DNA of 64,000 bases from the NCBI GenBank assembly GCA_035516255.1, contig DATJAL010000031.1:1-64000 (forward strand), read 5' to 3'. The notes beneath the pieces were generated by a model. The model made no database searches. It was not told where the DNA came from and saw nothing but the letters and a program-made list of their open reading frames with translations. Source of the stretch: Chitinivibrionales bacterium. Its GTDB lineage: Bacteria; Fibrobacterota; Chitinivibrionia; Chitinivibrionales; FEN-1185. Within the stretch, counting starts at the first letter, position 1, and each line of letters opens with the position of its first letter. The position numbers were made by a program, and so were the translations under genes. Positions 44,078 to 62,518 of this stretch are shown here, piece after piece.

Positions 44078-44305
44078 ATGAATAAGTATCATGTTTACAT
44101 AACGACCAATCCATCAAATACAGTTCTATACACAGGTGTAACAGGAGATATATCCAAAAGGGTGTTTGTCCATAAGAATAAACTTTTAGATAGTTTCACT
44201 AAGAAATGCAATGTCATAAAACTTGTTTATTCCGAGGAATATTCTTTTATCGATGACGCTATAAAAAGGGAAAAACAGATAAAAGGTGGATCAAGGAAAA
44301 AGTAA
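44078..44305 (+). CDS. Small GIY-YIG nuclease (COG2827-like), C-terminally truncated by an in-frame stop
   Basis: 75 aa. 'MNKYHVYITTNPSNTVLYTGVTGDISKRVFVHKNK' holds the GIY ('VYI') and YIG ('YTG') motifs and the catalytic Arg region; 'AIKREKQIKGGSRKK' carries the conserved Glu. It ends at TAA 44303. Reading through, the same frame gives 'IELIRATNPEFKELKVVG' up to TGA 44360, the usual end of these ~95-aa proteins ('..KK.eLI...NP.fkdL'). TAA probably replaced a Lys codon (AAA). Flanked by inverted repeats and inserted between two subunit genes of one transporter. Confidence 0.8.
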   Translation: MNKYHVYITTNPSNTVLYTGVTGDISKRVFVHKNKLLDSFTKKCNVIKLVYSEEYSFIDDAIKREKQIKGGSRKK

Positions 44306-48148: not shown

Positions 48149-48177
48149 TTGACTAAAAGATAAACAAGCCGTATATT
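48149..48177 (+). promoter_or_regulatory. Sigma-70-type promoter of the nine-gene biosynthetic operon
   Basis: TTGACT at 48149-48154, 17-nt spacer, TATATT at 48172-48177. Start point about 48184, leaving a leader of about 165 nt before ATG 48350 with no obvious riboswitch. Confidence 0.6.
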
Positions 48178-48349: not shown

Positions 48350-49333
48350 ATGATTACCTTTATAAGAGCATATATAAAATCCATGAGATTGTATTACTCG
48401 TTCGTGACCGGCATGGCCGGATGGCTGGGTGTTTCATATTATGAATACCTTTCCACAAATCCCATTGAACGGACGATCGAAACGGCTCCTGCACCTGAAA
48501 AGAAAATAATCATTCTCGTCCTTCTGTTTCTCAGTTGGGGCGTCAACCAGATCATAAATGATTTTCTTGGATTAAAAGAGGACCGCATCAATGCACCTCA
48601 CCGGCCCATGGTGACCGGCGAATTGAATCCCTATGGCGCACTTCTCCTCTCCATCGCACTCATCCTCGTTTCCGCAGCGGTCACCTGGTTCTATCTCGAG
48701 CCGTTTGCAATAGTATTTCTTTTCGCTGGCGTATTGCTCAACATCCTTTATGAATTCGCAAAAGGCAAGGGTATTCTCGGGAACATCGTTTTCGGGTTCA
48801 TGATCACCATGGCCCCGCTTTTTGGCGGTTATGCTTCGGGTCCGACGGCATCAACGGTTCTGATGCCCCATCGGGTGTCGGTGCTCATTATGGTATGGGT
48901 GATGAACGCCCTCATGACCTATTACACGTATTTCAAGGATTACAAAGGCGACATGGCAGCGGGCAAGTTGACGCTCGTGGTCTCATTCGGTCTCCGGAAA
49001 TCGCGCTGGATTTCGATTTTTTCCGCGTTTCTGCCAACGTTGATTTTTGCAGCGCTCAGGATTTCGGGGATTTACCGCACACCGCTGAACACTACGTTCA
49101 TTTCGCTTGGTCTTCTGACTGTTTTTCTTCAGATTTGGACCGGCGTGCTCTATTACCGTTTTCCAAGCGGGCCCGGAGCATATAATTCTTTGATCACGAA
49201 TTTTCGGGCCTGTACCTGCGGCCAGGCCGCGCTCATCGGCATATTCAATCCCGACCTCGCCCTGTGGCTTTTTATTTTTTCCTATGTTTTTGTCGGGTTT
49301 CTTTTTGATTTCCACCGCGACCATCAGCAGTGA
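48350..49333 (+). CDS. UbiA-family prenyltransferase
   Basis: 327 aa from ATG 48350; a TTG at 48329 is also in frame. Eight to nine membrane segments. First aspartate motif 'NQIINDFLGLKEDRINAPHRPMVTGEL' (NDxxxD plus the conserved 'aphRP...G'), second 'YYTYFKDYKGDMAAGKLTLVVSFG' (DYxxDxxxG...T). UbiA enzymes move a prenyl or polyprenyl group onto an aromatic ring, glycerol phosphate, sugar phosphate or similar acceptor. First gene of a compact operon; 16 nt to the next start. The acceptor is probably the lipid or amine made by the downstream genes, but this is inference. Confidence 0.88.
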   Translation: MITFIRAYIKSMRLYYSFVTGMAGWLGVSYYEYLSTNPIERTIETAPAPEKKIIILVLLFLSWGVNQIINDFLGLKEDRINAPHRPMVTGELNPYGALLLSIALILVSAAVTWFYLEPFAIVFLFAGVLLNILYEFAKGKGILGNIVFGFMITMAPLFGGYASGPTASTVLMPHRVSVLIMVWVMNALMTYYTYFKDYKGDMAAGKLTLVVSFGLRKSRWISIFSAFLPTLIFAALRISGIYRTPLNTTFISLGLLTVFLQIWTGVLYYRFPSGPGAYNSLITNFRACTCGQAALIGIFNPDLALWLFIFSYVFVGFLFDFHRDHQQ

Positions 49334-49349
49334 CAGAGGGAGAATCCCC

Positions 49350-50549
49350 GTGAGGCTTTTCGAAAATGCAGGTATCGGCGCGGTAACGCTTGAAAACCGG
49401 ATCATCCGCTCGGCGACCTTTGAGGGAATGTGCGATGCGCAGGGGGCGCCCACGGACCGGTATGTAAATTTTTACGCGTCTCTTGCGAAGCATCACATCG
49501 GAGGAATCGTCACCGGATTTGCCTTTGTCAACAAAGACGGCAGGGCAATGCAGCCGGGCCAGGCCGGAATCGACGGCAACGACAAGATCCCCCGGTTCGC
49601 CGAGTTGACGAAAAACGTCCACCGGCATGGCGGCATCGTTTTTTTGCAGATCGCTCACGCTGGCAGGCAGACGGTTCCATCTGCGACCGGCGGGAAGGTG
49701 TATGGCCCGAGTGCAAAGAAGTCAGGATATTTTACTGTTAAACCGTCGCGGCTTTCCCTTTTGCAGGCGGAATCAATTATCAATGATTTCGGCCGCGCCG
49801 CTCAAAGGGGACGTGAGGCGGGGTTTGACGGCGTTCAGGTGCATGCCGCGCACGGTTATCTCATCCATCAATTCCTTAATCCGGCGGTCAATGACCGCAG
49901 CGACGCATACGGCATTGACCCGCACAGCGGCATCGGCACGGAGTTCCTTGGCCGTGTCCTGCAATGCATTCGCGCCTCATGCGGCAGCGACTATCCCGTT
50001 CTTGTTAAAATAAGCGCAGGCGACGAATACCACCGCGGAATGAAGAGGCCTGAATTCGTCAACCTGATCCGGTTCCTTGATGCGCAAAAAGTGGACGCCG
50101 TCGAAATAAGCTGGGGCACCATGGATCGGCCGCTGAATATTTTCAGGGGCGCTACGGTCCCGGTTCAGGCCATACTTGATTACAATCCGGTATACCACCA
50201 GCATAACGGACTCCTGCGTATGGCATGGAAAATCGTTGCACTACCGGTTCTCAAGAAATCTTTGAAACCGTTCACGCCTACCTACAACCTACCCTTTGCA
50301 CGGCTTGCCAGGGAACACACGAAAGTTCCCCTGATCTGTGTAGGCGGTTTCAGGTCGGGTACGGAAGCAACCGGAGCTGTTGAAAACGACGATATCGATT
50401 TCGTGAGCCTGTGCCGGCCCTTTTTACGGGAACCGTCCCTCGTTTTAAAGTGGCGGCAGAACAGGGACTATCGATCGGGCTGCATAAACTGCAATCGCTG
50501 CGCGGTCATGTGCGATTCGGGGCAGCCGACGCGCTGTTATGCGCAATGA
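49350..50549 (+). CDS. NADH:flavin oxidoreductase (old yellow enzyme family) with C-terminal Cys cluster
   Basis: 399 aa from GTG 49350, preceded by AGAGGGAGA. FMN-barrel motifs: 'LENRIIRSATFEGMCD', 'GGIVTGFAFVNKDGRAMQPGQ', 'GIVFLQIAHAGRQT' (catalytic His region), 'GFDGVQVHAAHGYLIHQFLNPAVNDRSDAYG', 'PLICVGGFRSGTEA'. The C-terminus 'GCINCNRCAVMCDSGQPTRCY' contains five Cys in the pattern C-x2-C-x2-C-x3-C-x7-C, which may hold an iron-sulfur cluster as in dienoyl-CoA reductase. Likely reduces an activated C=C of a pathway intermediate. Confidence 0.9.
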   Translation: MRLFENAGIGAVTLENRIIRSATFEGMCDAQGAPTDRYVNFYASLAKHHIGGIVTGFAFVNKDGRAMQPGQAGIDGNDKIPRFAELTKNVHRHGGIVFLQIAHAGRQTVPSATGGKVYGPSAKKSGYFTVKPSRLSLLQAESIINDFGRAAQRGREAGFDGVQVHAAHGYLIHQFLNPAVNDRSDAYGIDPHSGIGTEFLGRVLQCIRASCGSDYPVLVKISAGDEYHRGMKRPEFVNLIRFLDAQKVDAVEISWGTMDRPLNIFRGATVPVQAILDYNPVYHQHNGLLRMAWKIVALPVLKKSLKPFTPTYNLPFARLAREHTKVPLICVGGFRSGTEATGAVENDDIDFVSLCRPFLREPSLVLKWRQNRDYRSGCINCNRCAVMCDSGQPTRCYAQ

Positions 50550-50571
50550 ACACTGAACCAAGGAGACGACA

Positions 50572-50820
50572 ATGGACATCGAGGTGAAAGTTTTAGATCT
50601 CGTCCGTTCAAACATTGAGAAAAAAGGCGCGGTCACCCTGCAGAGCGACCTGCGCAAGGACCTTGAGGTGGACTCGTTCGGCACCATCATGATCGTCAAC
50701 GCAGTCGAGGACGCGTTCGGCATCACGGTGGAAGAGACCGATATCAAAAGCATGGAAAAGGTTTCCGACATCGTGGAACTGCTTTCGAAAAAGTACCATG
50801 TTTCGGGGAAACAGCCATGA
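50572..50820 (+). CDS. Acyl carrier protein
   Basis: 82 aa, AAGGAG before the ATG. Four-helix ACP pattern with the phosphopantetheine Ser35 in 'LEVDSFGTIMIVNAVEDAFGITVEETDIKSMEKVSDIVELL'. 'DSFG' in place of the usual 'DSL' marks a specialised ACP rather than the housekeeping AcpP. The stop overlaps the next start (ATGA). A 4'-phosphopantetheinyl transferase is not visible in the window. Confidence 0.92.
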   Translation: MDIEVKVLDLVRSNIEKKGAVTLQSDLRKDLEVDSFGTIMIVNAVEDAFGITVEETDIKSMEKVSDIVELLSKKYHVSGKQP

Positions 50821-52001
50821 AACCTTCGACCCTTTATCAATCACTGAAAACGGACCTGTCCCTTGCCGTCCGCGCCGGTTTTAATCCTTACTACCAGAAA
50901 TTGGAACGGGGAGGTGCGGGAAGGCTGAAGGCGGACCGCGCGCCGCTTTTCGATCTGGCGTCGAACGACTATCTCGGTCTGGCGGCCGACCCGCGCGTCA
51001 AGGCCGCGATGGCGGAGGCGGTGAACCGCTGCGGAGCATCGTTCTGCGGCACGCCGATCGCGGCGGGCTATGCCGGAATTCTGGCGGAGCTTGAGGCGGG
51101 CATCGCGGCCATTACGGGCCTCGAGTCGGCGGTGGCCTTTCCCTCCTGCTATCAGGCGAACAACTCGCTGTTCAGTTCCATCGCCGGCGCGGGAGACGCG
51201 GTCATCGTCGACCACTACGCGCACGCGTCGCTGATCCAGGGCATACGGGCAAGCGGCGCATGTGTCAAGCCATTTTTGCACAACAACACGGATCACCTTG
51301 AAAAGCAACTTGCCGCCTCCCGGAGCTTCAGAAGGGTTTTTGTTGCGACCGAGTCGGTGTTTTCCACCGAAGGGAGCATCGCGCCGTTTGATGTCATCAA
51401 CGACCTGTGCGGACGCTATGATGCGACGGCAGTCATCGATGATTCCCACGGTATCGGCGTCATCGGAAAGAACGGCCGCGGCATCCTCGAGCACGCGGGC
51501 ATCAGCGGTTTCGAGGGAATCTATACCGCGTCGCTCGGCAAGGCTCTCGCCGGCACCGGGGGCGTGATTGCGGGCAGGGAGGCGCTCACCGGATATCTCC
51601 GCTATAACTGTTCAGGACTCATTTATTCAACAGCATTGGTGCCGTCGGCCGCGGCCAGCGTGCTCGCATCAATGAAGATCATTTCGGATGAGTTCGCGGT
51701 CCGCGGGAAGAAAATGTGGGACAATCACGCTCTTCTAAAAGCGCAGTTGACAGATGCGGGATTTGCGTTGGCCGGCGGCGAAGCGCCCATAGCAGCGGTT
51801 ATGTGCGGTTCCTCCGAACGCACCATTTTGCTGGCCAAGCTGTTTTTCGAGAACGGGATATTCTCAACGCCCTTCATTCCGCCTTCCGTGCCCCCGGAGC
51901 AAGGCGTGCTGAGGCTCATCATCGGCGCAAAGGTGGATGAGGCTGACGCGCGCGAATTAGAGCGGCGCGTCGCCGCGATAGGATGCGAGGCCAAACGATG
52001 A
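50817..52001 (+). CDS. Alpha-oxoamine synthase family PLP enzyme (AONS/KBL/SPT-like)
   Basis: 394 aa. 'FDLASNDYLGLAADPRVKAAMAEAVNRCGASFCGTPIAAGY' and 'LAELEAGIAAITGLESAVAFPSCYQANNSLFSSIA', 'VDHYAHASLIQGIRAS', 'ATAVIDDSHGIGVIG' (Asp/His pair) and PLP Lys242 in 'IYTASLGKALAGTGG' define the family. These enzymes condense an amino acid with an acyl thioester and lose CO2 (8-amino-7-oxononanoate, ketosphinganine or amino-ketone products). The direct coupling to a dedicated ACP suggests an acyl-ACP donor. Which amino acid is used cannot be read here. Confidence 0.92.
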   Translation: MKPSTLYQSLKTDLSLAVRAGFNPYYQKLERGGAGRLKADRAPLFDLASNDYLGLAADPRVKAAMAEAVNRCGASFCGTPIAAGYAGILAELEAGIAAITGLESAVAFPSCYQANNSLFSSIAGAGDAVIVDHYAHASLIQGIRASGACVKPFLHNNTDHLEKQLAASRSFRRVFVATESVFSTEGSIAPFDVINDLCGRYDATAVIDDSHGIGVIGKNGRGILEHAGISGFEGIYTASLGKALAGTGGVIAGREALTGYLRYNCSGLIYSTALVPSAAASVLASMKIISDEFAVRGKKMWDNHALLKAQLTDAGFALAGGEAPIAAVMCGSSERTILLAKLFFENGIFSTPFIPPSVPPEQGVLRLIIGAKVDEADARELERRVAAIGCEAKR

Positions 52002-52960
52002 AACACTTTTTCGTGATCAATCCCATGTCCCGCAACGGCCGCAGCGGCGCGTTGACCGGCAAGCTGCTGTCTCTTGCCAAACAGGAAGGCATTTCCCTTG
52101 ACTACGAGATGACAACCTCGCTCGAACATGCCTTTGCGCTCTCGAAACGCGCCAACGAAGAACGGTACGATGTCGTCGTGGCCGTGGGCGGCGACGGAAC
52201 AATCAACCGGGTGCTGAACGGTTTTTTCAACGCCGATGGACAGAGGATTTCCTGCGCCAGGATGGGAGTGATTCACACGGGCACCAGCCCCGATTTCTGC
52301 AAGAGCTACGGCATTCCACGGTCGCTTGAGGGCGCCCTTCACGCCGTTGCGGCCGGGACAACCATTCCGGTGCGGGTGGGCAGGATCGCTTGCACTGCGC
52401 CGCAGGGTTCGCAGACGGAAAGCACGGCCACACCGCCGCAGTTCTTCGGTTGCTGCGCGAACATAGGGCTCGGAGCCGCCCTCGCCCGCGCCGCGAACAG
52501 CGGCATACGGCGGTATGCCGGTGATTTCGCCGGAACCTTTCTTTCCCTGATGAACCTGTTGCGCAGGTACCGGCCCGGCACGGTTTCTCTCAATATCGAC
52601 GGAAACCGTCGCACCCTCACCGGCGTGTATGACATCGCGGTGGGCAGAACGCGCTACATCGCTTCGGGGATCCAGGTGCGGAACGCGCCCGCGCCGCTCG
52701 ACGCAACGTTCTATGTTCTCACGGTAAAAAAGCTGTCGCCCCTGAACATTGCCGCGGTGCTCGGACTGATTTACGGGGGCAAGGAAATTCCCGCGGGCCG
52801 CGATTATATTTCGCTGGAGTACGGCGCGCGCATCTGGATTTCCGGAGGCTCAGGCCTTGAGGTCGAGTTTGACGGCGACCCGGCGGGCGTTTGCCCATGC
52901 GTCATTTCGGCGTCAACCGACCCTCTTGAACTGATCATTGGAGACGGCCATGCCCGGTGA
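51998..52960 (+). CDS. Diacylglycerol kinase-like lipid kinase
   Basis: 320 aa from ATG 51998, overlapping the preceding stop (ATGA). N-terminal 'FFVINPMSRNGRSGALTGKL' and the nucleotide motif 'YDVVVAVGGDGTINRVLNGFF' (GGDGT at about residue 63) identify the DAGK catalytic family (DgkB, sphingosine/ceramide kinases, YegS). 'GCCANIGLGAALARAANS' is the second conserved glycine region. In this operon it may phosphorylate the long-chain amino-alcohol or a glycerolipid product. Confidence 0.9.
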   Translation: MKHFFVINPMSRNGRSGALTGKLLSLAKQEGISLDYEMTTSLEHAFALSKRANEERYDVVVAVGGDGTINRVLNGFFNADGQRISCARMGVIHTGTSPDFCKSYGIPRSLEGALHAVAAGTTIPVRVGRIACTAPQGSQTESTATPPQFFGCCANIGLGAALARAANSGIRRYAGDFAGTFLSLMNLLRRYRPGTVSLNIDGNRRTLTGVYDIAVGRTRYIASGIQVRNAPAPLDATFYVLTVKKLSPLNIAAVLGLIYGGKEIPAGRDYISLEYGARIWISGGSGLEVEFDGDPAGVCPCVISASTDPLELIIGDGHAR

Positions 52961-53990
52961 AAAAGAGATCATCAACATACTGGATGCTGTTCTTCCACAG
53001 GGGCGCTTGAACCGGTGCAATGAATCCGACTGCGAAATCATATCGCTGTGCGGGCAGAAGTTTCTTTTCACCACGGACGAATTTTCCGAGGAGGACAGGT
53101 TTTGCGAACAGGATCCCCGGCTGCTCGGCTGGAACATCGCCGCCGGCGCCCTGAGCGACGTGTATGCGTGCGGCGGCACGCCGCACTACTATGCCCATTC
53201 GTTGACAGTTGCGAAAACATGGGACGGGAAGTTCATCGAGGAGTTCGGCAGGGGGGTGGCCGATGCGCTCGGTGAATCGGGCGCGCGGTTCATGGGGGGG
53301 GATTGCGGGCAGGCGCAGGAATGGCGGTGCTGCGTCTCCATCATCGGGTCGTGCGACGGCGAGCCGATCACCCGCATGGGCGCGCGGCCTGGCGACCGTA
53401 TTTATTTGAGCGGGCGTGTCGGCGCGGGAAATGTGCAGGCCGCGCTTGGCATGTCGCCGTTTGGAAAAAGGGGCGTTCCCGGATTGCCCGGCATCAGGTT
53501 CAGGCTCCGCGCCAGGGAATCGGCGCTGGTGAAGCGGAATGCATCCTCCTGCATTGACACAAGCGACGGCGTCTGGAAGTCGCTCACCATTATCGCCGAC
53601 CTCAACCGGTGCGGTTACGCCGTGGATTCGCTGCCGTACCACCGCGCCGGCGTCCTGCTCGCCAAGGCAGTGGCCATGCCGGCAATAATGCTTTTTTTCG
53701 CCGAATGCGGGGAGTATGAACTACTCTGCACCATTCCGGAAAAGTCCGAGCGTGATTTTCTCAGGGAAGCGGGGGAAAAGGGCCTGCGCTTTTTCCGTAT
53801 CGGAACCGTCACCGAAAACCTCAGGACAATCGCCGATGGAAAGAACACGCTCGAGGTGGGCGATCTGCACATCGAGGCCCGCGGCTTCGAATCGACCCGG
53901 GAATATCTTACGGCCTTGACCGGCTGGATCAAACGGCAACGCTCGCGGGAAACGGAGTCCTTAAGCGGGGGAGCGCATCATGCCGCGTAG
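52950..53990 (+). CDS. ThiL/PurM-like ATP-binding protein
   Basis: 346 aa from ATG 52950 (GGAGA upstream), overlapping the kinase stop by 11 nt. AIR synthase/ThiL fold: 'FLFTTDEFSEEDRFCEQDPRLLGWNIAAGALSDVYACGGTPHYYAHSLTV' and 'GARFMGGDCGQAQEW', with 'GDRIYLSGRVGAGNVQAALGM' and 'NASSCIDTSDGVWKSLTIIADLNRCGYAVDSLPYH'. The N-terminal GDDAA of true ThiL is replaced by 'NESDCE', so this is not a housekeeping thiamine-phosphate kinase. Probably an ATP-dependent phosphorylating or activating step in the pathway. Confidence 0.85.
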   Translation: MPGEKEIINILDAVLPQGRLNRCNESDCEIISLCGQKFLFTTDEFSEEDRFCEQDPRLLGWNIAAGALSDVYACGGTPHYYAHSLTVAKTWDGKFIEEFGRGVADALGESGARFMGGDCGQAQEWRCCVSIIGSCDGEPITRMGARPGDRIYLSGRVGAGNVQAALGMSPFGKRGVPGLPGIRFRLRARESALVKRNASSCIDTSDGVWKSLTIIADLNRCGYAVDSLPYHRAGVLLAKAVAMPAIMLFFAECGEYELLCTIPEKSERDFLREAGEKGLRFFRIGTVTENLRTIADGKNTLEVGDLHIEARGFESTREYLTALTGWIKRQRSRETESLSGGAHHAA

Positions 53991-55251
53991 GGTCGTCATC
54001 ACCGGCATGGGGCCGGTCACGAGCATCGGCATCGGCAAGGACGCGTTCTGGCGCTCGCTGTTGCGCAAGGGGATCGTTGTTTCGCCGGTGCCCGAAGCGT
54101 TTGAGCGCACCTGTCAACTTCACTCGCGCTGGTACGCGCCCCTGCCTGCCGTCTCCCTCGGGGATTACGGCATGGATTTTCATTTCGCAAGCGCCATGCA
54201 GCCCGAGGACCGGATGGCGGTCGCGGGCGCAAAGCTGGCGCTTGACGACGCGGGATTTCCCCTTGAGCGCACCGGCGCCGGGCTTGCGGTGAAGGACCTC
54301 GGTTCCTGCAGCGTGCTCATCGGCACCGGGCTGAGCGGCCTTCAGAGCGCGTTCGAATCGTACCTCGCGCACCGCCTGCCGCAGGAACTGCTCGACCGGC
54401 TCGCGGTGCAGAAAAGGATAAAGTTCAACCGGATGGTCATCCCGGCAACCATGCCCAATTCGCCCGCGGCATGGGTCTCCATCTGCTTCGGCGTGCACGG
54501 CCAGAGCGCGACCATCAACGCCTCGTGCGCGTCGGGAACCTGCGCCGTGGGCGAGGCGTTCCGCCGGATACGCGACGGGTACGACGACACGGTCCTGTGC
54601 GGCGGCGTTGAGAACCTGAGGGACGAAAGCGGCGCGATCATGCGCGGGTTCGACATACTCGGCACATTGACAAAAAGTAAAGACGGCCCGCCGCGCCCGT
54701 TTTCAAAAAACAGGAGCGGCTTTCTTTTTGCCGAGGGCGCCGCCTGCCTGCTGGTGATGGAGGCGCTCGAGCGCGCGCGGTCGCGCAAGGCGCGCGTCTA
54801 TGCCGAGGTGCTCGATTACCGCGCGTGCAGCGACGCGGCGAACATCGTCCAGATAGAAAAGGAGGGGCGGCAGATAGCGCGGATGCTCGCGGAAATTTCC
54901 AGGGGCAGGCACATCGACTACCTTAACGCCCACGGCACCGGCACCGAGCCCAACGACGACGTGGAGGCGCGGGCCGTTGCGTCCGTGTTCGGCGCCCGCG
55001 CTGAACAGCCGCTTGTCAATTCGACCAAGGGCATTCTCGGCCACACGCTGGGCGCGAGCGGCGCCCTGGAAGCCGCGGTGACCGCGCTTTCCCTGACGCA
55101 GGGCGTTGTGCACGGCAACCTCACCGACGACCCCGTGGAAGGCCTGAATCTGCCGCTTGAACCGGTCACCCGCCCGATACGGACGGCGCTGACCGTTTCC
55201 TACGGATTCGGCGGCCATAATGCGGCGCTGCTCCTGGGAAAGGTGCCTTGA
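53980..55251 (+). CDS. Beta-ketoacyl-ACP synthase (KAS II-type)
   Basis: 423 aa, overlapping the previous gene by 11 nt. 'RRVVITGMGPVTSIGIGKDAFWRSL' start; catalytic Cys183 in 'TINASCASGTCAVGEAF', His318 in 'LNAHGTGTEPND', His355 in 'GILGHTLGASGALEA', and 'VSYGFGGHNAALLL' near the end. Triad intact, so catalytically competent. It probably extends the acyl chain on the operon's ACP before or after the oxoamine synthase step. No ketoreductase or dehydratase of a normal FAS is in the operon. Confidence 0.93.
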   Translation: MPRRVVITGMGPVTSIGIGKDAFWRSLLRKGIVVSPVPEAFERTCQLHSRWYAPLPAVSLGDYGMDFHFASAMQPEDRMAVAGAKLALDDAGFPLERTGAGLAVKDLGSCSVLIGTGLSGLQSAFESYLAHRLPQELLDRLAVQKRIKFNRMVIPATMPNSPAAWVSICFGVHGQSATINASCASGTCAVGEAFRRIRDGYDDTVLCGGVENLRDESGAIMRGFDILGTLTKSKDGPPRPFSKNRSGFLFAEGAACLLVMEALERARSRKARVYAEVLDYRACSDAANIVQIEKEGRQIARMLAEISRGRHIDYLNAHGTGTEPNDDVEARAVASVFGARAEQPLVNSTKGILGHTLGASGALEAAVTALSLTQGVVHGNLTDDPVEGLNLPLEPVTRPIRTALTVSYGFGGHNAALLLGKVP

Positions 55252-55252
55252 C

Positions 55253-56284
55253 ATGGAAAAAGTCCTGATCACCGGTGCTACCGGTCTTATCGGCAGCCAT
55301 GTCGCCGAAGCGTTGTGCGACTGCGGGTATTCCTGCATCGCGTTCGTCCGCGCGCCTTCGCGGCTGCCCGAGGAACTTGGCGGGCGCGTGGAGACCAGAA
55401 TTGGGGACATCCGCGACCTTGACGCGTTCACCGCCGCGGCCCGAGGCTGTTCCTCGATCGTCCATGCCGCGGGAATGGCCGCCGACTGGGGCGACAAGGC
55501 CGATTTTCTCAACATCAATGTGCGGGGCACCCTCAACGCGCTCGAGGCCGCCCGCACAAACGGCTGCGCCCACGTCATTGTCACTGGATCGATTTCGTCC
55601 TACGGCGAGGAGGACTGCGCGTTTGTCAAGGATGAAACATCCCCCTTTAATCCGCATTACCGTTATTTCCTCGACCGGCTGTTCCCCTGTAAATTAAACT
55701 GGTACCGTGACTCGAAGGCCGAAACCACACGGCAGGCCATGGCGTTTTCGGCGCGCCACGGCATCAACTGCACGATCCTGGAACCCGCGTGGGTATACGG
55801 GGAGCGCGAATTCAATTCGGGCTTTTTCAGTTATGTCAAATCCGTCCAGCAGGGCCTCGGCTTCCTGCCCGGATCAAAACGGAACACCTTTCATGCCGTT
55901 TACGCGCGCGACTGCGCGAAAGCGTACGCGCTCGCGCTGCGGAAAAAACCGAAAGGCGTGGAGCGGATCATCATCGGCAATCCCCGGCCCCAGCCCATGC
56001 ATGAGCTATTCGGGCTTTTCTGCGCCGAGGCCGGGCTCAAACCGCCCCGCCTGCTGCCGAAGTGGGTGGCGTATCCGCCGGCTTTTGCGCTGGAGGCGGC
56101 ATGCACGCTTTTCCGGAGCAAAAAACCGCCGCTTCTTTCCCGGGGCAGGGTAAACATGTTTTACGATTCGATTGGCTATTCCACGGAAAAGGCCCGCGCG
56201 CTTCTCGGCTTTACCTGCGACTACACGCTCGGCCAGGGCATCCGCAACGCCGTGCAATGGTACCGCAAAAAAGGATACTTATAA
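55253..56284 (+). CDS. NAD-dependent epimerase/dehydratase (extended SDR)
   Basis: 343 aa from ATG 55253, two bases after the ketosynthase stop. NAD motif 'VLITGATGLIGSHVAEAL', 'VHAAGMAADWGDKADFLNINVRGTLNALEAA', catalytic 'WYRDSKAETTRQAMAF' (YxxxK) and 'EPAWVYGEREF', 'NTFHAVYARDCAKAYALAL'. It resembles 3-beta-HSD/CerR-like and dihydroflavonol-reductase-like SDRs that reduce a keto group on lipids. A good candidate for reducing the amino-ketone made by the oxoamine synthase. Confidence 0.88.
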   Translation: MEKVLITGATGLIGSHVAEALCDCGYSCIAFVRAPSRLPEELGGRVETRIGDIRDLDAFTAAARGCSSIVHAAGMAADWGDKADFLNINVRGTLNALEAARTNGCAHVIVTGSISSYGEEDCAFVKDETSPFNPHYRYFLDRLFPCKLNWYRDSKAETTRQAMAFSARHGINCTILEPAWVYGEREFNSGFFSYVKSVQQGLGFLPGSKRNTFHAVYARDCAKAYALALRKKPKGVERIIIGNPRPQPMHELFGLFCAEAGLKPPRLLPKWVAYPPAFALEAACTLFRSKKPPLLSRGRVNMFYDSIGYSTEKARALLGFTCDYTLGQGIRNAVQWYRKKGYL

Positions 56285-56296
56285 ATCGGAGGACGC

Positions 56297-57574
56297 ATGA
56301 AAAGAATACAAAACGTCACCGGCCTTGGCCGTTCGGTTTTTCTGCTGCGGCTCGAGCTCGCGGTATTTTTCCATTTTCTGCCTTCTCTTGTCACCGGCCG
56401 CATCTCGTTGCCCCGGTTCGCGGCTTTTTTAAAACGGCTGCTGTTTTTTCTCTCCAGGCTGCGGCACAACAAGTTCGCGCGCATCGGCAATGCCGCGAGA
56501 ATAGACCTGTATGTGCCGGGATTTCCTTCGCGCGCCTTTTACACGGCATGCGAGAAGTTTTCGGTGTTCGGGACAAAACTGCCCTGCGCCACCGTGCTTG
56601 TCTCGGTCACCTCGGCATGCCGGTATGCGTGTCCGCATTGCTACCAGCGCCGCGACAAGGGAGCGGACATGCCTCTCCCGGCGCTGGTGGGCGTCGTGCG
56701 GCGGCTCCAGGACATGGGCGTCGCCTTTTTCAACGTCGAGGGCGGCGAGCCGTTTCTTGTGTACGACCGCCTGAAAAGCGTTTGCGCCGCAATTGACGCG
56801 CGCTCGGAGGTATGGGTGAATTCCACGGGCGACGGCATGACCCTTGACCGGTTGAAGGAGTTGAAGGGCCTCAACCTGACCGCCATCATGTTTTCCCTGC
56901 ACACCGCGCAGCCGGAAAAGCTCAACCGGTTCATGGGGTCGGCAAGCGCGTGGGAAAATCTTGAACGCGGGGTATCCCTGTGCCACGAGGCCGGCGTTCC
57001 GGTGACGTTCAACGCCTGCATCCCCAGGGAGGACTTTTTTAACGGCGAGTTCGAGAAGATAATGGAGAAGGCAAGGGAGTGGAACTCCGGCCTGATCCAA
57101 TTGATAAAACCGAAGCCGGCAGGCGCGCGCATGGAACAGGGCGTGGAAACCATCCTGCCGGACGATAGGGAGGCAATCAGGCGGAAAATCCACCGTTACA
57201 ACCACGACGCCGCGTACCGATCATACCCGTCAATTTCCGCGCAGATTCTCGAGGAGGCGCCGGAGGTGTTCGGCTGCACCGCCGGGGGGACCGACCGGTT
57301 TTACCTCAACGCAAAAGGCGACGTGCAGCCGTGCGAGTTCCTTAACATTTCCTTCGGCAACGTCACCCGGGAGGATTTTTCTTCAATTTACAAGCGCATG
57401 CGCGCCTGTTTTGAAAAACCCGGCCAAACCTGGCTCTGCGAGGCCTATTCGGCAAAAATTAGGGAAGTGGCCGGTGAAACCGGCGTGCTGCCGCTCGGGA
57501 CCGAAGAATCGGAAAAAATCTATATAAACTGGGAGAGGGGCAAGGCAACGGAGCTGTATAAGGTCCTGGAATAA
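56297..57574 (+). CDS. Radical SAM enzyme with Cys-rich C-terminus (SPASM-like)
   Basis: 425 aa, GGAGG before the ATG. A hydrophobic N-terminal region (~residues 15-60) suggests membrane association. Cluster motif CxxxCxxC in 'SVTSACRYACPHCYQRRD' (~residues 108-115), 'FFNVEGGEPFLVYD' (GGEP) and 'NLTAIMFSLHTAQPEKLNRFMG'. The C-terminal part has 'VFGCTAGGTDRFYLNAKGDVQPCEFLNISFGNV', as in SPASM/MoaA-like enzymes. Reaction unknown; last gene of the operon. Confidence 0.9.
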   Translation: MKRIQNVTGLGRSVFLLRLELAVFFHFLPSLVTGRISLPRFAAFLKRLLFFLSRLRHNKFARIGNAARIDLYVPGFPSRAFYTACEKFSVFGTKLPCATVLVSVTSACRYACPHCYQRRDKGADMPLPALVGVVRRLQDMGVAFFNVEGGEPFLVYDRLKSVCAAIDARSEVWVNSTGDGMTLDRLKELKGLNLTAIMFSLHTAQPEKLNRFMGSASAWENLERGVSLCHEAGVPVTFNACIPREDFFNGEFEKIMEKAREWNSGLIQLIKPKPAGARMEQGVETILPDDREAIRRKIHRYNHDAAYRSYPSISAQILEEAPEVFGCTAGGTDRFYLNAKGDVQPCEFLNISFGNVTREDFSSIYKRMRACFEKPGQTWLCEAYSAKIREVAGETGVLPLGTEESEKIYINWERGKATELYKVLE

Positions 57575-60629: not shown

Positions 60630-61256
60630 ATGAACAGAGCAGCAGGTGAACAGCCGGGCTTGCATCCCGCGCAGGACGAAGAGGACCTCAGGCTGGTCGA
60701 GAACGTCCGGCAGGGGGACAGGATCTCCTTTGACCGGCTCGTGCTCAAGTACCGCGACCGGATCGTGATGCTCTGTGTGCGGACGCTCGGCGATTTTCAG
60801 GAAGGGGAGGACGCGGCGCAGGAGACGTTTGTCAAGGCCTACCGGAGCATCGGCGGGTTCAGGGGAAGGGCGAGCTTCTCGACCTGGCTCTACCGGATCG
60901 CGGTGAACACCTGCCGCAACCAGGGCCAGTCGTGGTGGAACCGGGCGTGGCGCACCGCGCTGCATCTTGACAAACCGGCTGTTGACGGGGAGGGAAATGA
61001 GATGCAGACCGAGCTGGCCGGCGACGACCCGCCCGCCTCGGCGGAACTGGACCGGAAGAGAACGGGCGAGGCGATCCGGGCGGCGATAAAAAAGCTCCCT
61101 CTCATCCACCGCCAGCTCATCGTGCTGCGCGACATCGAGGGGAAGAGCTATGAGGAAATCGAGGGCATCACGGGTGTTCCGGCCGGAACGGTGAAGTCGC
61201 GCCTTGCGCGGGCGCGCGCCGCGCTGCAGAACGATCTGAAGGGGCTTTTGGCATGA
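60630..61256 (+). CDS. ECF RNA polymerase sigma factor
   Basis: 208 aa. Region 2: 'DLRLVENVRQGDRISFDRLVLKYRDRIVMLCVRTLGDFQEGEDAAQETFVKAYRSIGGFRGRASFSTWLYRIAVNTCRNQ'. Region 4: 'AIRAAIKKLPLIHRQLIVLRDIEGKSYEEIEGITGVPAGTVKSRLARARAALQNDL' with the HTH. Overlaps the anti-sigma gene (ATGA, 61253-61256), so the two are coupled. No Shine-Dalgarno is obvious. Probably responds to envelope stress. Confidence 0.92.
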   Translation: MNRAAGEQPGLHPAQDEEDLRLVENVRQGDRISFDRLVLKYRDRIVMLCVRTLGDFQEGEDAAQETFVKAYRSIGGFRGRASFSTWLYRIAVNTCRNQGQSWWNRAWRTALHLDKPAVDGEGNEMQTELAGDDPPASAELDRKRTGEAIRAAIKKLPLIHRQLIVLRDIEGKSYEEIEGITGVPAGTVKSRLARARAALQNDLKGLLA

Positions 61257-62518
61257 ACGACAGGGAAATAAGGGAATCACTCCACGATTACGCGCGCGGA
61301 CTCCTCGGCGAAAAGGAGAGAAGGGAGGTCGAGCGGGCTCTCGCCGCGTCAGCATCCCTTAAAAAGGAGCTGGAGCGGGTGCGGGCGTACTACGGCGCTC
61401 TTGACGAAATGGAGCCTGTGCGCGCATCCAGGGATTTCCTGGAAAAAGTGCATGAGAAACTGCAGCATCGTACCGGCGCGGCCGGCCTTGTAGAAAAAAT
61501 ATTCTTTCCGCTTTATGTGAAAGTTCCTCTCGAGCTGCTGGGCGTCGCCGCGACCGTTTTGGTGGTGGTGTTTTTATATGTTCCCTATTTGACCCAGAAG
61601 CAGCAACAGGAAACCATGCGCCAGCAGGCGACCGAAGAAGACGTGCCCAAGCCCGCTGCGTCCGCGCCTGCGGAAACGCCACCGCCTGCGGCAATGGCGC
61701 AACAAGAGGAAAAGACGCGTGTTTCGCCTGCCAAAGCCCCTTCAGAACAATTCGCCGCTGCAAAGGCGAAACGGAGCACGAAACCGGAAACGCATGCGCA
61801 GGATTTTGCCGAGGCAATGCCGGAACAGGCGCCTTCCGTTGCCGTCGCCGGGAAGCAGTCCGCCGGGTTTGGCGGCTCCATGGCGGACAAATCATCAAGG
61901 GGATCCGCGGCGCCGCCGGCGCCTGCGGGCGCGCCGAAAGAACTTGCTTTGTCGGAAAAGGACGAAGCGAGAAAGGCCGCTCCCGAAGCGGCGGAAGGCG
62001 AAGCGAGGTCGGCCATGCCGTCCAGGACGGCGGGTCTTGAGGCGGAAAAAAGCAAAAGGGAGGAATTGAGTGCCAGGCCGTCCGGGGCTGGCGCCGCTAT
62101 TGCAGAAAGTAATCCGCGGCAAGTTCGGGAAATCGTCGCTCAATACGCCTTTAACAGCGCCGGTGAAGCGCCGCAGCCTGCCCAATACGAAAAAATGAGA
62201 ATGGCGGAAGCGAAAAAGTCCATCTCCGGTAATTACGCGGCCCCTGCCGCCGCGCCGGCTCCGGAAATGAAGGCGGACCGTTTAATGGCCAAAGAGGATC
62301 AGGAAGGATTCATCAACGCGGTTGCTTCGAAGTTTAATGCCGGTGTCCAGTCAAGGGATTCCGGTGACTTAAGGATTTATTCAATCACCATCCCATCACG
62401 ATATGTGCCGTCGTTTCTTGATTCGCTCCGTGCAAAGGGTGCACTGACTATATCAGGATACGCCGCGGTGAAAGCAATTGCTGATAAGGTTACGGTTATC
62501 CTAAAGACTTCTCGATAA
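61253..62518 (+). CDS. Putative transmembrane anti-sigma factor
   Basis: 421 aa. N-terminal ~65 residues ('NDREIRESLHDYARGLLGEKERREVERALAASASLKKELERVRAYYGALDEMEPV') are a zinc-finger-like anti-sigma helical domain without the classic HxxxCxxC. Membrane segment 'LLGVAATVLVVVFLYVPYL' at ~85-105. Long Ala/Pro/Lys/Glu-rich linker (~110-300), then a C-terminal periplasmic domain ('INAVASKFNAGVQSRDSGDLRIYSITIPSRYVPSFLDSLRAKGALTISGYAA'), DUF4349-like. Location and coupling to the sigma factor support the role. Confidence 0.75.
   Translation: MNDREIRESLHDYARGLLGEKERREVERALAASASLKKELERVRAYYGALDEMEPVRASRDFLEKVHEKLQHRTGAAGLVEKIFFPLYVKVPLELLGVAATVLVVVFLYVPYLTQKQQQETMRQQATEEDVPKPAASAPAETPPPAAMAQQEEKTRVSPAKAPSEQFAAAKAKRSTKPETHAQDFAEAMPEQAPSVAVAGKQSAGFGGSMADKSSRGSAAPPAPAGAPKELALSEKDEARKAAPEAAEGEARSAMPSRTAGLEAEKSKREELSARPSGAGAAIAESNPRQVREIVAQYAFNSAGEAPQPAQYEKMRMAEAKKSISGNYAAPAAAPAPEMKADRLMAKEDQEGFINAVASKFNAGVQSRDSGDLRIYSITIPSRYVPSFLDSLRAKGALTISGYAAVKAIADKVTVILKTSR

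Follow-up and report, generated by a model that had tools for sequence, protein, structure and literature searches.

Background

In Caulobacter, ceramide phosphate is made through Spt, AcpR, AasR, CerR and the ceramide kinase CpgB (PMC11324152), a pathway in which a dedicated acyl carrier protein (ACP) feeds a pyridoxal-phosphate-dependent oxoamine synthase and in which a reductase and a lipid kinase also take part. In the archaeal ether-lipid pathway, which comprises GGGPS and the UbiA-family enzyme DGGGPS, the latter prenylates a phosphorylated lipid on its hydroxyl, with geranylgeranyl diphosphate as donor (PMC9385802). We analyse here a nine-gene cassette, located at positions 48350-57574 of a 64,000-nt stretch of a Chitinivibrionales genome (contig DATJAL010000031.1, positions 1 to 64,000; hereafter the window), which has points in common with both systems. 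Like the Caulobacter pathway, it associates an ACP with an alpha-oxoamine synthase (AONS), a reductase of the short-chain dehydrogenase/reductase (SDR) type and a DAGK-type lipid kinase, and like the archaeal one it includes a UbiA protein, nearest to DGGGPS, for which a phosphorylated lipid would be a plausible acceptor. ACP, ketosynthase and AONS also co-occur in prodiginine biosynthesis, as they do in this cassette, and its AONS belongs to the same family as BioF and Kbl.

The cassette nevertheless differs from each of these systems. Unlike in Caulobacter, its AONS falls in another clade and displays another selectivity motif, neither an N-acyltransferase nor an acyl-ACP synthetase is present, a UbiA, a radical S-adenosylmethionine (SAM) enzyme, a FadH-like flavoprotein, a ThiL-like protein and a ketosynthase (KAS) are added, and carriers include monoderm Bacillota. 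In contrast to the archaeal pathway, it has neither GGGPS nor glycerol-1-phosphate dehydrogenase, and two Asp of DGGGPS, D66 and D180, are replaced by Gly and Tyr in its UbiA. Prodiginine-type modules differ by the lipid kinase, UbiA and radical SAM enzyme of the cassette, whose ketosynthase is moreover dispensable, and BioF and Kbl by the separate clade of its AONS, which tdh does not adjoin and which is remote from the biotin genes of its genome. No published account of the gene set or of its product was found in the open-access literature searched, in line with a first-pass annotation of the window which knew of no described pathway with this exact set.

The nine genes constitute one operon and a self-contained pathway rather than a chance cluster, since the set recurs across phyla without common flanking genes and is rare in each group. 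Found intact across at least ten phyla, this pathway is a strong candidate for an undescribed membrane lipid or lipid cofactor. New with it are a clade of oxoamine synthases and a subfamily of UbiA proteins whose catalytic Asp motifs have been rewritten alike in nearly every copy. A product combining chains derived from fatty acids with isoprenoid ones, if that is what the pathway makes, would be relevant to the lipid divide between Bacteria and Archaea.

Organization of the cassette

The open reading frames (ORFs) of the window include nine genes, all on the + strand and head to tail, as initially annotated, preceded by a promoter-like site:

48149-48177, + strand: promoter-like site TTGACT-N17-TATATT (10 of 12 consensus matches)
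48350-49333, + strand: UbiA-family membrane enzyme, nearest to archaeal DGGGPS (Pfam UbiA, 9e-26), its Asp motifs altered to NDxxGxxxD and YFKDxxGD
49350-50549, + strand: FadH/old-yellow-enzyme (OYE)-like flavoprotein with a C-terminal 4Fe-4S-type Cys motif and without the C-terminal reductase domain (Oxidored_FMN, 9.5e-54)
50572-50820, + strand: ACP (PP-binding, 2.8e-7), fused to the AONS in a relative (L120)
50817-52001, + strand: AONS of a new clade (Aminotran_1_2; tree support 100/99), motif SxC(G/A)TP
51998-52960, + strand: DAGK_cat/YegS-type lipid kinase (DAGK_cat 1.5e-22, YegS_C), motif GTSPDF
52950-53990, + strand: ThiL/PurM-superfamily phosphotransferase-like protein (AIRS; ThiL model 9e-38, below cut-off)
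53980-55251, + strand: FabF-like KAS (ketoacyl-synt) with conserved Cys and two His (C183, H318, H355)
55253-56284, + strand: extended SDR with an HpnA/OleD-like epimerase fold (Epimerase 1.8e-31; HpnA 2e-34, below cut-off)
56297-57574, + strand: radical SAM enzyme with a SPASM/twitch-like C-terminus and two N-terminal helices (Radical_SAM 1.5e-18, SPASM)

The four gene overlaps first reported were all retrieved by direct reading of the sequence: ATGA between ACP and AONS (50817-50820) and between AONS and the lipid kinase (51998-52001), and 11 nt between the lipid kinase and the ThiL-like gene (52950-52960) and between the latter and the KAS (53980-53990). The start of the flavoprotein gene is probably the GTG at 49350. 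Every protein scores above the Pfam gathering threshold for its family (UbiA, Oxidored_FMN, PP-binding, Aminotran_1_2, DAGK_cat/YegS_C, AIRS/AIRS_C, ketoacyl-synt, Epimerase-type SDR and Radical_SAM/SPASM), and none of the nine passes an NCBIfam equivalog cut-off, so that each represents a divergent member of its superfamily. The consensus promoter proposed in front of the genes does exist as a site but constitutes weak evidence, such sites being just mildly enriched in the window (8 found for 4.8 +/- 2.4 expected by chance).

Distribution and co-inheritance

Relatives were retrieved by an AONS scan of genome contigs followed by tblastn of all nine proteins on the fetched loci, most of which come from metagenome-assembled genomes (MAGs); phyla are given as named in their records. 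Some 20 genomes from ten named phyla (Fibrobacterota, Calditrichota, Auribacterota, Omnitrophota, Bacillota, Neomarinimicrobiota, Bacteroidota, Cloacimonadota, Pseudomonadota and Synergistota) carry most of the cassette, usually with the gene order unchanged. The carriers (Calditrichaceae, Auribacterota, Omnitrophota, Chitinispirillaceae, Herbivorax, Desulfosporosinus, Neomarinimicrobiota, Bacteroidales, Cloacimonadota, Zoogloeaceae and Synergistaceae) are widely separated and mostly anaerobic bacteria, and some of their loci are short contigs holding part of the cassette only. The genes thus stay together in relatives instead of being split among unrelated neighbourhoods, which upholds the single operon first proposed. 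In Bacteroidales their order is circularly permuted (ThiL-KAS-SDR-rSAM-UbiA-OYE-ACP-AONS-DAGK, rSAM standing for radical SAM); one Bacteroidales cassette has a 347-aa protein without Pfam match between KAS and SDR (L086:6045-7088), and in a Clostridia genome (L123:1-9124, G512:C2) about 5.6 kb with five other ORFs separates UbiA from the remaining cassette genes.

No family outside the cassette occurs in the flanks of more than three loci, the one cluster of five loci being the ACP itself, and the loci compared have no transporter, resistance gene or regulator in common beside the nine genes. The TPR protein, the beta-barrel and the two unassigned proteins inserted in L023 are not recurrent, nor are the flanks scanned in the other loci. 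The cassette is rare in each sampled group: profile searches, which added further copies, matched 5 of 168 genomes of Fibrobacterota (one being a weak, non-cassette match), 3 of 341 from the class to which Herbivorax belongs, 4 of 247 Bacteroidales, 4 of 193 Omnitrophota (including two divergent ones) and 3 of 125 Cloacimonadota, with no match in a genome of the same genus as that of the window (G001, 98% complete). The cassette UbiA had no match among 72,556 plasmids.

Eight of the nine families have correlated distance matrices when compared over 13 complete loci (mean r 0.68, largest p 0.024). In a quick concatenated tree, which contains long rows and whose details are provisional, the loci mostly group by phylum, yet Azoarcus joins Synergistaceae, which suggests a long-standing co-inheritance of the cassette with some transfers. 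The Zoogloeaceae/Azoarcus loci and those of Synergistaceae MAGs (L036, L037, L038 and L039) pair in trees, suggesting a transfer between phyla, and their isolate codes hint at a common gut habitat.

Core and accessory genes

Reduced loci were found in Omnitrophota. One (L089) consists of AONS, DAGK, an SDR::radical SAM fusion and UbiA; the other (L120) of an ACP::AONS fusion, DAGK, SDR and UbiA, its radical SAM gene lying on another contig (L088). A cassette-type ThiL-like gene is absent genome-wide from both of these genomes, where the weak matches resemble ordinary ThiL. The KAS is missing from two otherwise full loci (L025 and L071), in genomes whose only KAS homologues score like generic FabF, and the OYE-like gene from L084 and L038. 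From the gene content of these loci, ACP/AONS, lipid kinase, SDR, radical SAM and UbiA form the core, and KAS, OYE and ThiL-like protein are accessories. The SDR and radical SAM genes are fused in L090 as well, and these fusions indicate that the two enzymes are coupled. Less weight was given to L038 and L090, which seem partly decayed or misassembled.

The oxoamine synthase and its acyl carrier protein

A careful AONS tree was built with a small set of plasmid-borne annotated genes as references, most of them classified with NCBIfam: Kbl beside tdh, BioF beside bioA/bioC, 5-aminolevulinate synthase (ALAS), and serine palmitoyltransferase (SPT) of Parabacteroides, Prevotella and Sphingomonas. 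All 27 cassette AONS form a clade of their own (100/99), which is closest to Kbl (98/95) and distinct from the SPT, BioF and ALAS sequences; the SPT references form a separate clade (100/98). The cassette enzyme scores 256 of 640 bits with the SPT-CFB model, far below SPT cut-offs, and 295 bits with the BioF model (cut-off 426). SPT is among its nearest solved structures. The amino-acid selectivity site studied in ThAOS is occupied by Val in Kbl, by Ser in E. coli AONS and S. paucimobilis SPT, and by Thr in R. capsulatus ALAS (PMC11906848). According to the site equivalence derived from that study and our alignment, the cassette AONS carry Thr-Pro at this site (Thr in 26 of 27, Pro in all), the Pro replacing an Arg found in every reference AONS and Thr79 replacing the Ser of SPT and BioF, so that Gly or Ala would be a likelier amino acid substrate than Ser.

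A role in biotin or threonine metabolism was rejected given the different clade and a separate biotin operon (bioA, bioF, bioH-like, bioB) on another contig (C2), no biotin or threonine pathway being completed near the cassette. Identification as an SPT was also rejected, the enzyme lying outside the SPT clade and below its cut-offs, with a Thr-Pro site, in a genome without any SPT above cut-off. The resemblance to sphingolipid pathways noted at first holds for the ACP, AONS, SDR and lipid kinase as a parallel and fails for the AONS itself. No ceramide N-acyltransferase was found among the nine genes or the recurrent flanks, as already noticed for the cassette, the rest of the genome not having been searched.

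The ACP gene overlaps that of the AONS, and the natural fusion of both in L120, the best evidence of the acyl source, supports the view that the ACP would feed the oxoamine synthase. The fusion strengthens the initial proposal that an aminoketone is made from acyl-ACP; on such genomic grounds the enzyme would be an ACP-dependent oxoamine synthase, as is the proteobacterial type of SPT. A second pairing of an oxoamine synthase with a DAGK-type kinase was seen on a Parabacteroides plasmid (L133:1-1440), where an SPT gene is divergent beside a diacylglycerol-kinase-family gene.

UbiA and the other enzymes

UbiA is the most conserved protein of the cassette (median identity 62% over 13 loci). Its closest match by sequence and predicted structure is DGGGPS of archaeal ether-lipid synthesis, which came first in a profile search of solved structures (8e-13) and in a Foldseek search (6m31/7bpu at 2.1e-8, next family at 3e-5) with an AlphaFold (AF2) model (pLDDT 86, 16 sequences). 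The genome of the window encodes a second UbiA protein (L068:8449-9294, G000:C45), DGGGPS-like and canonical (PRK12884 family, below cut-off), in which neither Asp motif is altered.

Catalytic residues of the AONS, KAS, radical SAM, ThiL-like and OYE-like proteins are conserved in alignments of relatives. The lipid kinase has both its catalytic DAGK_cat and its YegS_C domain above the Pfam cut-off, and the SPDF part of its GTSPDF motif is invariant (24/24). The ThiL-like protein reaches 130 of the 184 bits required by the NCBIfam ThiL model; its PurM-type Asp residues are conserved, and it may therefore work like ThiL on another substrate. With 263 of 494 bits for the FabF equivalog, the KAS keeps C183, H318 and H355 at the expected catalytic positions. 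The enzyme first described as OYE-type is better defined as a FadH-like barrel with a C-terminal motif C-x2-C-x2-C-x11-C (C383, C386, C389 and C401) conserved in 22 of 22 sequences. In the radical SAM enzyme, the CX3CX2C motif (C108, C112, C115) is present in 28/28 sequences and C327, C346 and C381 in 26/26; its AF2 model (pLDDT 87) resembles SkfB, BlsE, SuiB, MoaA and PqqE at the superfamily level only. Another Fibrobacterota genome (L063:6873-8189, G003) encodes, outside any cassette, a radical SAM/SPASM protein with 29% identity to the cassette enzyme, next to the gene of a 514-aa protein without NCBIfam match.

Proposed pathway

We consider it an even call that the nine genes make up one horizontally mobile pathway for a membrane amphiphile, whose product would probably be a phosphorylated, sphingoid-like amino lipid bearing a second substituent provided by UbiA. 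The dedicated ACP would be charged by the cassette KAS or by a housekeeping FabF, and its acyl chain passed to the AONS, which would condense it with a small amino acid into a long-chain aminoketone; the amino acid is probably Gly or Ala. The extended SDR would reduce the ketone to an amino alcohol, to be phosphorylated by the DAGK-type kinase. Where sphingolipids are N-acylated, this phospholipid-like compound would instead be the acceptor of a second chain, probably an isoprenoid, added by the DGGGPS-like UbiA; the acceptor chemistry of DGGGPS would fit a compound made by AONS, SDR and DAGK. Finally, the radical SAM enzyme and the Fe-S flavoprotein would alter the chain or the head group, and in full cassettes the ThiL-like protein would add a second phosphate or activate the head group. 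The AONS, SDR and DAGK steps follow from the chemistry of their families and from the gene fusion, the remainder being more conjectural. That no exporter, resistance gene or regulator is conserved speaks for a product that stays in the cell, and the presence of the cassette in monoderm Bacillota argues against a lipid confined to the outer membrane.

More specifically, and with somewhat less than even confidence, we propose an undescribed lipid class with a phosphorylated amino-alcohol backbone derived from acyl-ACP and Gly or Ala, a second isoprenoid or other chain attached through a UbiA with rewired metal motifs and an anaerobic radical SAM step, that is, a hybrid of sphingoid and archaeal types which horizontal transfer would have brought to anaerobes of at least ten phyla. 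Herbivorax sp. ANBcel31 is named as a strain and not as a MAG, and its product may therefore be directly testable.

Several points weigh against this reading. The product, the enzyme activities, their substrates and the order of the steps are predictions from the genes, and the roles given to the ThiL-like, OYE-like and radical SAM proteins are guesses. In DGGGPS, alanine mutants of D66, D70, D180, D183 and D187 have strongly reduced activity (PMC9385802). The cassette UbiAs have Gly at D66 (MjDGGGPS numbering) in 24/24 sequences and Tyr at D180 in 22/23, whereas both Asp are kept in 14/14 other UbiAs of the relatives. From these losses and the effect of the corresponding mutants, canonical prenyl-diphosphate chemistry may not occur. 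The equivalents of D183 and D187 are kept in nearly all sequences, as is that of D70 with one exception, and the simplest reading would be a DGGGPS-like enzyme with a changed donor or metal use. The possible prenylation suggested at first is thus favoured by the proximity to DGGGPS and weakened by the loss of one to two critical Asp, and we retain it as a hypothesis. No prenyl-diphosphate synthase belongs to the nine-gene operon, and no GGGPS was found among the nine genes or the recurrent flanks, the rest of the genome not having been searched. The choice of amino acid is also soft, as the V79T variant of ThAOS accepted L-Ala only (PMC11906848).

Alternative explanations

The alternative that survives best, still an unlikely one, is a self-made donor: the DAGK-type and then the ThiL-like kinase would convert a lipid alcohol into a lipid diphosphate, which would then be the donor substrate of UbiA, another compound being the acceptor. 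A parallel is offered by phytol kinase and phytyl-phosphate kinase, which successively turn a lipid alcohol into its diphosphate. ThiL converts a phosphomonoester into a diphosphate and UbiA enzymes take diphosphate donors, a family chemistry that fits this route, as do the adjacency and 11-nt overlap of the DAGK and ThiL-like genes and the conserved Asp residues of the latter's product. However, the divergent Omnitrophota keep DAGK and UbiA without a cassette-type ThiL-like gene anywhere in the genome, and UbiA lacks one to two of the metal-binding Asp.

It is rather improbable that a beta-ketoacyl-ACP extended by the KAS is joined to Gly or Ala on the AONS and cyclises into an alkyl-hydroxypyrrole, which UbiA would prenylate into a quinone-like membrane redox carrier. 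The prodiginine-like set of ACP, ketosynthase and AONS, the small amino acid predicted from Thr79 and the frequent prenylation of aromatic rings by UbiA enzymes would agree with such a heteroaromatic product, but the KAS is absent from the two otherwise full loci mentioned above, whose genomes have generic-FabF-like KAS only, the core lipid kinase is left without a role, and UbiA is nearest to DGGGPS and not to aromatic prenyltransferases.

We give a slim chance to a cluster for a secreted natural product, antibiotic or signal, which the sparse and patchy distribution and the transfer between phyla suggested by the pairing of Azoarcus/Zoogloeaceae and Synergistaceae loci would suit, but against which stands the lack of a conserved transporter, resistance gene or regulator; the high and uniform conservation over wide distances (median identity 62% for UbiA) is also unlike that of fast-diversifying clusters.

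That the genes form a bacterial sphingolipid or sulfonolipid pathway to which tailoring genes have been added is very improbable, since the parallel of AONS, ACP, extended SDR and DAGK kinase with the Caulobacter ceramide system (PMC11324152) and the place of SPT among the nearest solved structures are opposed by the position of the AONS outside the SPT clade and far below SPT cut-offs, its Thr and Pro in place of the SPT Ser and the following Arg, the absence of an N-acyltransferase from the cassette and that of an SPT above cut-off from the genome.

Other features of the window

Scans of the window for Rfam families, tRNAs and terminators gave nothing useful. Downstream of the cassette, a putative ECF-type (extracytoplasmic function) sigma-factor-like ORF (60630-61256) overlaps the gene of a long Ala/Lys-rich protein (61253-62518) that may resemble an anti-sigma factor. 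Upstream, a lone small ORF of 75 aa, possibly a GIY-YIG-type nuclease (44078-44305), precedes an ABC-transporter pair.

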